Source of the DNA: an uncultured Ignavibacteria bacterium
Lineage (GTDB): Bacteria; Bacteroidota; Ignavibacteria; Tepidaquicellales; OLB5
Direction of reading: 5' to 3'
Assembly: GCA_937873695.1 (NCBI GenBank)
Contig: CALMYL010000004.1
Span: 1-64,000, forward strand
Length of the DNA: 64,000 nt
The position numbers and the translations under genes are program-made. Under the pieces are notes generated by a model. It was not told where the DNA came from. It did not search any database and saw only the letters and a list, made by a program, of their open reading frames with translations. Shown here piece after piece: positions 1 through 3,202 of the stretch. How positions within the stretch are numbered: the stretch's first letter is position 1; every line of letters begins with the position of its first letter.

Positions 1-365
1 TCCACCCTCCCGCCTGCGGCGGGATGCTCTAACCACTTATTGTTTAAATAAGTGGGCCAGGGAGGATTTGAACCTCCCACCCTCCCGCCTTCGGCGGGAT
101 GCTCTAACCAGCTTATTGTTTAAATAAGTTAGCGGGGATTTGATTCTTCCACCCTCCCGCCTGCGGCGGGATGCTCTAACCACTTATTGTCTAGATAAGT
201 TAGCGGGGATTTGATTCGTCCACCCTCCCGCCTGCGGCGCTATGCTCTAACCACTTATTGTCTAGATAAGTTAGCGGGGATTTGATCCATCCACCCTCCC
301 GCCTGCGGCGGGATGCTCTAACCACTTATTGTTTAAATAAGTGGGCCAGGGAGGATTTGAACCTC
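1..365. repeat. tandem array of five tRNA-like units
   Basis: Five units begin with the string ccaccctcccgcc at 2, 77, 149, 220 and 291 (one has ggcgct instead of ggcggg), and the intact tRNA continues the phase with ccacccc at 366. Spacing is 75, 72, 71, 71 and 75 bp, about one tRNA length. Read on the minus strand each unit holds the 3' part of a tRNA D-arm (TGGTTAGAGCA), a GC hairpin CCCGCC-GCA-GGCGGG where the anticodon arm should be, and a T-arm. The acceptor 5' strand and D-stem 5' strand are replaced by a hairpin CTTATTTAAACAATAAG or its TCTAGA variant. Two units carry the same T-arm and acceptor end as the intact tRNA; three carry a different one (ATCAAATCCCCGCTAA). The array runs off the left edge. 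Confidence 0.85.
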
Positions 366-415
366 CCACCCCGCGCTTATAAGGCGCGTGCTCTAACCAC
401 CTGAGCTACTGGCCC
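342..415 (-). tRNA. tRNA-Ile with anticodon UAU
   Basis: A complete cloverleaf can be drawn on the minus strand. The acceptor GGGCCAG pairs with CTGGCCC. The D-stem is GCTC/GAGC. The anticodon stem CGCGC/GCGCG encloses the seven-base loop CTTATAA, so positions 34-36 are TAT. The variable loop is GGGTG, the T-stem GGAGG/CCTCC with loop TTCAAAT, and the discriminator is A; CCA is not encoded. Anticodon UAU would read AUA isoleucine codons. Most bacteria read AUA with a lysidine-modified CAU tRNA, so this identity is unusual. The gene ends exactly where the tRNA-like array begins, and its 5' part also occurs in the repeat at 842-1045. Confidence 0.88.
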
Positions 416-606
416 AGTAGTTCAGAAGGAAACAACCTGTATTTAAAGACTCTTTATATACAGCCTGTTTTATAGAGCAATTTGATGCGCCTGATGATTG
501 GCGGGTGATCTACTTAAAGATTGACCCTAAAAACTATTTAAAGAACGAAATCTATTTTACTATCTTCGAGAAATCTTCTGATTCCCCGATGCTTAATCTT
601 TTTTTC
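403..606. repeat. 204-bp direct repeat, copy A
   Basis: This stretch matches 842-1045 at a constant offset of 439 bp with only a handful of substitutions. It contains the first bases of the tRNA (5' end at 415), about 120 bp of spacer, and the last codons of the GIY-YIG gene. The homology stops inside the coding region at 606. The two copies flank the intact GIY-YIG gene, so a tRNA plus nuclease-gene unit appears to have been duplicated and then partly deleted. Confidence 0.9.
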
Positions 607-789
607 TAAAGCCAAAGCGGATCTTCTTTCCGGAAGTTCTGTACTCCAAACAAGAACCCAATCCTTAGCCTTACCTGTATACTTATTTTTATTTGAAACG
701 TGACCTTTTAGTCTATCTTCAATATTTGAAGTCTCACCAGCATAGAATCTGTTAAGCTTCTTACTGTAAATTATATAAACATAATGCAT
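538..789 (-). CDS. small GIY-YIG nuclease-like protein (UPF0213/COG2827 type)
   Basis: The protein has 83 residues and consists of one GIY-YIG domain. The GIY strand appears as YVYIIYS (residues 3-9) and the YIG strand as FYAGET, followed by the R of the family helix (ERRS/DRLKGH) and a C-terminal basic helix around EKKIKHRG. The length is normal for these stand-alone domains, which are related to URI endonucleases and whose cellular role is unknown. The ATG at 789 lies seven bases from the truncated end of a degenerate tRNA. The downstream part is duplicated at 977-1045. Its position between direct repeats and next to a tRNA suggests a mobile or recombination-prone unit. Nuclease activity is inferred from the family only. 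Confidence 0.75.
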   Translation of the reverse strand: MHYVYIIYSKKLNRFYAGETSNIEDRLKGHVSNKNKYTGKAKDWVLVWSTELPERRSALALEKKIKHRGIRRFLEDSKIDFVL

Positions 790-795
790 ATTTTA

Positions 796-854
796 TGAAC
801 CTCCCACCCTCCCGCCTGCGGCGGGATGCCAATCTACCTAAGAGCTACTGGCCC
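796..854 (-). pseudogene. degenerate tRNA remnant
   Basis: Read on the minus strand this begins with GGGCCAGTAGCTC, identical to the 5' end of the intact tRNA at 342-415. It then degenerates in the D-arm and carries the same GC hairpin (CCCGCC-GCA-GGCGGG) as the array units in place of the anticodon arm. It ends abruptly inside the T-loop (GGAGGTTCA). The acceptor 3' strand is missing, so it cannot fold as a tRNA. The start codon of the GIY-YIG gene follows almost at once. Confidence 0.75.
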
Positions 855-1105: not shown

Positions 1106-3202
1106 TTAAGCTCCGACTGTTTCTTTACCTTTGTACTTCTCTATTATCTGTTCGGCAATTGATTTAGGCACTTCTTCATAATGTGAAGTTTCCATATTAT
1201 ATAAAGCTCTGCCCTGCGTCATTGAGCGCATTGATGTTGCGTAACCAAACATTTCCGAAAGCGGAACCATTGCGCGGATAACCTGCGCGTCAGCGCGCTG
1301 GTTCATACCTTCAATTTTTCCCCTGCGAGAGCTCAGGTCACCCATTATATCACCCATGTATTCATCGGGAGTTATAACTTCAACCTTCATAATAGGCTCA
1401 AGAATAACCGGACCTGCTTTTAAAGCGCCCGCTTTAAACGCCATAGAACCTGCAATCTTAAATGCCATTTCAGATGAGTCAACATCATGGAATGAACCAT
1501 CAAACAATGTGGCCTTAACATCTTCAACGGGGTAACCGGCAAGAACACCATTTTTCATGGCTTCTTCAATTCCATGCTCTACCGGTTTTATAAATTCCTT
1601 CGGAATTGCACCGCCGACGATCTTATTTTCGAATATAAATCCTTTGCCTTTTTCATTCGGTTCAATTGTGATCCAGACATGACCAAACTGACCTTTACCG
1701 CCGGATTGCCTGATGAATTTGCCTTCCTGCTCAACTTTCTTGGTAATGGTCTCTTTGTAAGCAACCTGCGGTTTACCTATATTAGCTTCTACCTTAAATT
1801 CACGTTTCAAACGGTCAACAATAATCTCAAGGTGAAGCTCACCCATACCGGCTAGAATTGTCTGACCGGTTTCTTCATTGGTTGATATGCGAAGGGTAGG
1901 ATCCTCGTCTGCAAGCTTTCCAAGTGATTCCGACAATCTATCCTGATCAGCCTTGGTTTTAGGCTCAATAGCAATAGAAATAACCGGGTCAGGGAATGTC
2001 ATCCTTTCAAGTATGATAGGATCGCCTTCATCGCATAACGTATCGCCTGTTTTGGTATTTTTTAAACCGATAGCTGCAGCAATATCACCTGCGTATACTT
2101 CTTCAATATCCTCGCGGTGATTGGCATGCATCTGAAGGAGCCTTCCGACTCTTTCTTTTTTTCCCGAAACAGGATTATAGGTATATGAACCTGATTTCAA
2201 TACCCCAGAGTAAACCCTGAAGAATGTCAGTTTACCTACAAAAGGATCGGTCATAATTTTGAATGCAAGAGATGAAAACTTCTCATCATCCGATACATTC
2301 CTTGTAATATGATCATCGGTATGAATATGGTGACCCCATACCTCACCGATATCCTTTGGTGTAGGCATATAATCAATAACAGAATCAAGAAGAGTCTGCA
2401 CACCCTTGTTCTTAAATGATGAACCGCAAAGAACCGGGATGATCTTTACCTTTAATGTAGCTTCTCTTAATACTCTCTTGATCTCGGCTTCGGTAATTTC
2501 CTGGCCGTCTAAAAACTTATTCAATAATGTATCGTCAACTTCACTTACTGATTCAAGAAGTTTAAGACGGTACTCATTAGCTTTTTCAACAAGTGATGCA
2601 GGGATCTCCTGTTCTTCCCAGGTCTGCCCCAGTGTATCAGCATTATAGATAAGAGCTTTCATCCTGATAAGATCGATCTGCCCAACGAACATTTCGCCCT
2701 GCCCTATAGGCAGCTGCAACGGAACAACGTTTGCTTTCAGTCTTTCTTTCATCATATCAAGCACATGATAAAAATCAGCGCCGGTTCTGTCCATCTTGTT
2801 TACAAACGCAAGCCTTGGAACGCCGTATTTATCAGCCTGTCTCCAAACGGTTTCAGACTGCGGCTCAACACCGCCAACAGCGCAGAACAACGCCACCGCG
2901 CCATCAAGCACGCGTAATGAACGCTCAACCTCAGCGGTAAAATCTACGTGTCCGGGTGTATCAATAATATTGATCCTGTGATCTTTCCAGAAACATGTTG
3001 TAGCGGCGCTGGTAATTGTGATACCGCGCTCTTTTTCCTGTTCCATCCAGTCCATCGTAGCTGCACCTTCATGAACTTCGCCCATTCTGTGCAAACGTCC
3101 GGTGTAGTACAGTATCCTCTCTGTGGTCGTGGTCTTTCCGGCATCAATGTGAGCCATAATACCGATATTTCTTGTCTTATCTAATGTTACTTTTCTGGCC
3201 AT
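1106..3202 (-). CDS. fusA: elongation factor G
   Basis: At 698 residues this is a full-length translational GTPase that drives ribosome translocation. The G1 loop AHIDAGKTT (residues 17-25), the G3 motif DTPGHVDF (about 81-88) and the G4 motif NKMD (about 135) are all present, followed by the domain II-V segments typical of EF-G, including GELHLE and the domain IV HDVDSSE region. It is the last gene of the rpsL-rpsG-fusA operon, 105 bp after rpsG. A hairpin with a U-run lies between rpsG and fusA and may set its relative level. No tuf or rpsJ follows; the tRNA/GIY-YIG repeat region does. Confidence 0.98.

Follow-up and report, generated by a model that had tools for sequence, protein, structure and literature searches.

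A hairpin-marked tRNA-remnant array between fusA and tuf as the probable by-product of a GIY-YIG nuclease element that invades tRNA genes

A tandem array of tRNA-like units opens a contig of an uncultured Ignavibacteria bacterium, and we judge it to be, in good probability, the amplified by-product of a GIY-YIG nuclease element that invades tRNA genes. The DNA analysed (the window) comprises 64,000 nucleotides, and its position 1 is base 1 of the contig, here called C4. Comparison with related genomes shows that the ancestral order at this place is fusA–tRNA-Ile(TAT)–tuf, that a single-domain GIY-YIG gene entered the tRNA gene, with an intact tRNA kept or restored beside it, and that displaced tRNA parts remain, the 5′ part on the far side of the GIY-YIG gene and the 3′ parts towards tuf. 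The displaced halves are, on the same comparison, marked by a hairpin, a perfect palindrome of the form TCCCG..CGGGA at a former tRNA arm (usually the anticodon arm), and those on the tuf side have multiplied in tandem to a variable copy number. This anatomy recurs at many isotypes and in many phyla, and we therefore regard it as belonging to a class of mobile element; in our best reading, tRNA genes are the target of homing-like GIY-YIG elements, which provide a restored tRNA and leave behind halves that bear the hairpin and may amplify in tandem.

The array occupies positions 1–341 on the reverse strand (TRF: 1–342, period 71, 4.7 copies, 90% matches, score 534), and a repeat search of the window gave unit-to-unit spacings of 75, 72, 71 and 71 bp. 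Its units, 71–75 bp long, are 3′ parts of the adjoining tRNA-Ile(TAT) (342–415, reverse strand; found by ARAGORN, and by the Rfam tRNA model at 68.9 bits) in which the anticodon arm has been exchanged for TCCCGCC-GCA-GGCGGGA. This 17-nt GC hairpin reads TCCCGCCTGCGGCGGGA or TCCCGCCTTCGGCGGGA in four units: the first form in unit 5, which is clipped by the contig end (8–24), the second in unit 4 (83–99), and one or the other in unit 3 (155–171) and in unit 1, next to the tRNA (297–313). A hairpin linker rich in AT, CCACTTATTGTTTAAATAAGTGG, connects the 3′ end of the tRNA with the following unit's D-arm at 322–344, recurs at 33–55 and has variants near 110–131, 180–202 and 251–273. The initial annotation, which had placed the units in phase with an intact tRNA and noted both hairpins, is borne out on the phase and on the AT hairpin; its GC hairpin in place of the anticodon arm stands for four units but not for the remaining one (226–242, unit 2), where it has decayed to CCCGCCTGCGGCGCTA. 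Two of its other claims fail. It had every unit keeping the T-arm, but among the complete units only the fourth retains GGGAGGTTCAAATCCTCCC and the other three have decayed to GGATGGATCAAATCC and similar sequences; and it had two unit types alternating, but the order counted from the tRNA is B, B, B, A. When the units were run against the tRNA covariance model, as it had proposed, none matched even at E ≤ 1 and only the intact tRNA at 342–415 did, so their tRNA origin rests on sequence identity and not on fold. In an Rfam scan of this end of the window the tRNA alone scored above threshold; a Plastid-ycf2 match was set aside as the same tRNA-Ile read on the other strand. The hairpin 15-mer occurs 10 times in the 3.78-Mb genome (≤1 mismatch), 9 of them inside tRNA-like copies.

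The whole feature extends beyond the interval 1–365 first annotated, to about position 1054. Next to the intact tRNA lies its leader (416–537, reverse strand), probably brought or duplicated with the element: it has a duplicate copy, positions 403–609 recurring at 842–1048 with 97% identity in the repeat search, and a native leader is present in empty sites. The GIY-YIG gene follows on the strand of the tRNA (538–789, reverse strand; Pfam PF01541, E = 6e-17); it encodes 83 aa with the catalytic Tyr, Arg and Glu conserved. Sequence and alignments place the displaced 5′ part of tRNA-Ile (795–854, reverse strand) directly ahead of the start codon of this gene; the part breaks at the T-loop between GGTTCA and TAAAATATG and bears at its anticodon position (810–826) the same 17-nt hairpin as the array, TCCCGCCTGCGGCGGGA. 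A second leader copy and the C-terminal remnant of an older GIY-YIG gene (980–1054) fill 855–1054 on the reverse strand, and fusA occupies 1106–3202 (reverse strand). Leftwards, where the contig ends, the array continues elsewhere: the right end of contig C2 (18778–18916) carries two further units, 95% identical and directly beside tuf. Because C2 ends in units and tuf, and C4 past the array carries fusA (with rpsG and rpsL), the array sits in the str operon, with fusA on one side and tuf on the other, and has been split by the assembly.

GIY-YIG genes (GIY genes below) stand beside tRNA genes well beyond this site. In 39 relatives, the neighbouring tRNA is on the same strand in 50 of 50 table rows (about 44 distinct genes), and its isotype may be Ile, Met, Trp, Pro, Ala, Asp, Phe, Leu, Ser, Gly, Thr, Gln or Cys. 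A wide scan, in which a profile built from a close alignment of tRNA-type GIY proteins was run on 84,980 species genomes, yielded 80 loci in Bacteroidota, Ignavibacteriota, Fidelibacterota, candidate phyla, Lentisphaerota, Kiritimatiellota, Verrucomicrobiota, Planctomycetota, Nitrospirota and others. An intact tRNA lies within 1.5 kb in 59 of the 80, mostly within about 120 bp, a fraction that holds for the tRNA-type subfamily only, from which the profile came. The same strand is used by 58 of these 59 genes and, with the relatives added, in 108 of 109 rows, mostly within about 200 bp; the sole gene on the opposite strand lies by a tRNA-Ile(GAT) in an Acidobacteriota MAG (L239:1501–1719). Several wide-scan loci without a nearby intact tRNA sit at contig ends, and an Rfam scan of 20 loci without an ARAGORN tRNA found a tRNA or tRNA part in six.

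These genes are also accompanied by broken tRNAs. Beyond the GIY gene, on its far side, a partial copy of the same tRNA is present in 75 of 103 tRNA-adjacent loci, against 3 of 103 when tRNAs of other isotypes were used; in 28 loci no far-side remnant was detected. Polarity follows the arrangement, with 5′ parts where the GIY gene is upstream of the tRNA and 3′ parts where it is downstream, and several downstream genes stop within the D-loop of the remnant (for example, GGTTAG in L195 and L281). Of the 42 tRNAs in the array's own genome, 13 are accompanied within 700 bp by a partial copy on their own strand and none by one on the opposite strand (other-isotype control, 3 of 196); some of these remnants have no GIY gene.

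Contig ends of this genome hold comparable structures. A second array lies at the start of C22 and the end of C13 (L056:48–520 and L075), where tRNA-Cys(GCA) has three remnants of about 130 bp with two hairpins each; a GIY gene is found at the matching end of C13. At the start of C14 (L048:1–1080), a 366-bp tandem repeat comprises a whole GIY gene and a tRNA-Met 5′ remnant with the hairpin ATCCGCCGACTGGCGGAT. In an rRNA operon spacer at the start of C23 (L057:189–620), tRNA-Ile(GAT) and tRNA-Ala(TGC) are each followed by a hairpin-bearing 3′ remnant.

Residues Y5, Y16, G18, R26, H30 and E62 are invariant across 16 GIY proteins, and in a tree of 80 proteins, built from a short alignment, the tRNA-adjacent ones cluster by isotype across genera and families (clade support: Asp, 99/96; Ile, 100/99; Leu, 100/97; Ser-GCT, 100/100); those of Met, Pro and Cys are not single clades. 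Isotype labels change 19 times on this tree, against a mean of 40.8 after shuffling. A separate single clade holds 33 UPF0213-like proteins without tRNA neighbours. An Asp protein of G010 groups with one from another family, a placement that suggests transfer. With one protein, that of L131, a tblastn search against phages gave no match at E ≤ 1e-4, and the matches to PHROG homing endonucleases were weak and partial only.

Hairpins distinguish the remnants from intact tRNAs. A perfect stem of at least 7 occurs in 43 of 71 distinct remnants and in 8 of 71 intact tRNAs, with 1.1 expected after shuffling; the form [TC]CCCG..CGGG[AG] occurs in 44 of the 71 remnants and in no intact tRNA (0.36 expected). 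In alignments the hairpin stands for the anticodon arm, and in 3′ remnants of Asp and Cys for the T-arm. Derivation of the hairpins from the original anticodon stem only was considered and dropped, the outer TCCCG/CGGGA being common to unrelated tRNAs and phyla. The array's own genome contains 118 dispersed TCCCG..CGGGA palindromes (20 for the reversed pattern), and the link between hairpin and element could for that reason be indirect.

Palindromes also occur in other settings. A 21-nt double hairpin, CCCGAAGGGACTCCTTTGGAG, has 26 occurrences in the genome (≤2 mismatches), repeatedly just downstream of tRNA genes and within tRNA remnants (for example, in G000, at C11:50247–50402, C6:226442, C18:81902–81953 and C23:355–599). 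Among 36 GIY genes that are not at tRNAs, palindromes of 7 bp or longer stand at one or both ends of 17 and at both ends of 10, for a random-position rate of 0.088 per end. Palindromes of about 20 nt, such as ATTCCCGCGAAAGCGGGAAT, flank UPF0213-like GIY genes that are not near tRNAs (L134, L189, L197, L208, L215, L219 and L227); we take them to resemble the dRS3 repeat of Neisseria.

The dispersal of TCCCG..CGGGA palindromes, together with the presence of CCCGAAGGGACTCCTTTGGAG at several tRNA remnants that have no GIY gene, would fit a history of ordinary tandem duplication of a tRNA gene, in which REP- or dRS3-like palindromes later settled in neutral tRNA pseudogenes and the GIY gene is a bystander. 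We think this rather unlikely: the remnants are found across the GIY gene from the tRNA, with a polarity that fits the side of insertion, the strand bias is near-complete and the GIY clades track tRNA isotype.

The by-product reading draws further on the same site in related species. Among the relatives, fusA and tuf are both present at 28 loci and flank tRNA-Ile in every one, and this conserved site occurs both with and without a GIY gene. Four members of the same genus (G005, G012, G010 and G006) have an empty site, with neither GIY gene nor units, where tRNA and tuf are 79–114 bp apart and fusA and tRNA about 190–210 bp. Elsewhere at this site there is one unit in G009, G003 and G001, two in G011 and four in G002; the copy number within one genus is 0, 1, 2, 4 or at least 7. 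The single unit of G009, a two-contig assembly, accompanies a truncated GIY gene, and the four of G002 a full one. In another family the GIY gene lies upstream of the tRNA in G034, with two remnants downstream, and downstream of it in G028, with one remnant; the hairpin of these remnants is TGGCGCTTTCAGCGCCA or a close variant. The AT linker differs in sequence between species, as seen in G002 and G009, and keeps its pairing (TTATTTAAACAATAA; TTTTTTAAACAAAAA; TTTTTTATTAAAAAAA).

Such kept pairing, a nearly invariant GC hairpin and an array that shares the strand and phase of the tRNA are what one would look for if the array yielded a functional tRNA-like small RNA, a decoy or sponge co-transcribed with tRNA-Ile. 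We nevertheless consider this improbable, and a conserved form of the decoy that the initial annotation had offered unlikely with it: close species carry 0 to 4 units and several sister species none, T-arms decay, no unit matches the tRNA model, and pairing can also be kept by template-switch correction of quasi-palindromes. Because sister species have an empty site or one, two or four units, the array is neither a fixed RNA nor an artefact. An attachment-site array left by an integrase-type island, also proposed at first, draws on the common association of attachment sites with repeated 3′ ends of tRNAs; it has next to no chance of being right, as the ORFs at the site are GIY-YIG, fusA, rpsG, rpsL and tuf with no integrase among them, insertions on the 5′ side are as clear as those on the 3′ side, and the recurrent neighbour of such remnants is a GIY-YIG gene. 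An assembly artefact, which the position at a contig end might suggest, can effectively be dismissed given the matching C2 end beside tuf and the shared layout, with other copy numbers, in further species assembled independently, one of them in two contigs. Recombination debris was the closest of the options originally listed, but the debris is of a specific kind: tRNA parts displaced by a GIY-YIG element, with an element-associated hairpin.

The best solved-structure matches of the nuclease profile are 1zg2 and 1ywl (UPF0213) and SLX1 chains, with I-TevI unmatched at the cut-off used, and on account of these matches sequence-specific homing is not certain. In three MAGs of candidate phyla, an RNase P RNA gene holds a GIY gene, within it or at its start, on the same strand and between complementary stem sequences. 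The RNase P class A match of L254 spans 1263–1848 with the GIY gene inside (stems CCCCCACCACTTT and AAAGTGGTGGGGG); in L299 (1501–2083) and L308 (1501–2214) the gene appears to split the first RNase P RNA stem-loop, and the remainder matches at 83 and 51 bits, respectively, both below the gathering score of 100. These loci, with the palindromes at the ends of GIY genes that are not at tRNAs, suggest that the tie of such nucleases to stem-loops is a wider one. Tentatively, and with more doubt than belief, we raise the possibility that these minimal GIY-YIG nucleases are a new mobile system that would recognise nucleic-acid stem-loops over fixed sequence, insert in the loops of structured-RNA genes (tRNA arms and RNase P RNA helices) and mobilise or generate TCCCG..CGGGA palindromes. 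If so, they would be an unrecognised source of dispersed palindromic repeats.

Under the by-product reading, the nuclease would cut the tRNA gene, junctions lying mostly in or near the D, anticodon or T loops, and repair would copy in the element together with a tRNA part. The hairpin may then block re-cutting of the remnant, or its acting as a tRNA; alternatively it may be the structure that the nuclease recognises, a possibility kept alive by the resemblance of the profile to UPF0213 and the structure-selective SLX1. Repeated cutting, or recombination between tRNA copies, would drive the amplification, as for phage SegB; because the array units themselves carry no GIY gene, we draw the link from nuclease to amplification through position and analogy.

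Read in this way, the elements would be a class of very small selfish elements that live on essential tRNA genes in many bacterial phyla, and a chromosomal counterpart to SegB-driven tRNA amplification. They would account for debris that resembles tRNAs, for arrays of hairpins and for assemblies that break at tRNA genes, and they allow a test of whether common dispersed palindromes are made or moved by a GIY-YIG nuclease, and hence of their origin.

Several known systems share part of this anatomy. UPF0213/YhbQ-like GIY-YIG proteins and SLX1, a eukaryotic structure-selective enzyme, have a single GIY-YIG domain and are the best structure matches, but the UPF0213-like genes in these genomes form their separate clade and have no tRNA neighbour. 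Palindromes of the dRS3 and REP types, the latter linked to RAYT transposases, are likewise short and dispersed with TCCCG..CGGGA ends, whereas those described here sit in tRNA remnants beside GIY genes. Integrative elements that target tRNAs also restore the tRNA and leave a displaced tRNA part at the other end; the present elements have no integrase, measure about 0.3–0.5 kb, displace both 5′ and 3′ parts and leave hairpin-marked remnants. Group I introns with homing endonucleases in tRNA genes (PMC3984707) again place a selfish nuclease gene in a tRNA gene, but the present elements are not spliced out; they come with a second, intact copy of the tRNA, and the broken part is left in place. 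Among open-access papers, our searches turned up phage GIY-YIG genes located at tRNAs and numerous fungal mitochondrial ones, and no bacterial element of such build, in agreement with the initial annotation, which knew of no described family.

The nearest likeness is to SegB of phages T4 and T6, a free-standing GIY-YIG homing endonuclease at tRNA genes (PMC13096335; PMC2988022). According to PMC13096335, SegB cuts inside tRNA genes, with the motif RAWTSGAAC, and a tRNA segment depends on it for its tandem amplification. The reverse complement of that motif, GTTCSAWTY, would correspond to the T-loop, the same place where the 5′ remnant in the window breaks. Both systems have a GIY-YIG nuclease beside tRNA genes of many isotypes; the cutting of tRNA genes at a T-loop-like motif and the driving of tandem amplification of tRNA segments, known from SegB, would be shared by the present elements. 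SegB differs in being phage-borne and inserted between tRNA genes (PMC2988022, Table 1), and the available parts of these two sources describe no displaced, hairpin-bearing tRNA halves for it; the proteins reported here are of 80–90 aa and chromosomal. We place the GIY-YIG genes in tRNA-remnant loci as a probable variant of the free-standing GIY-YIG homing element.
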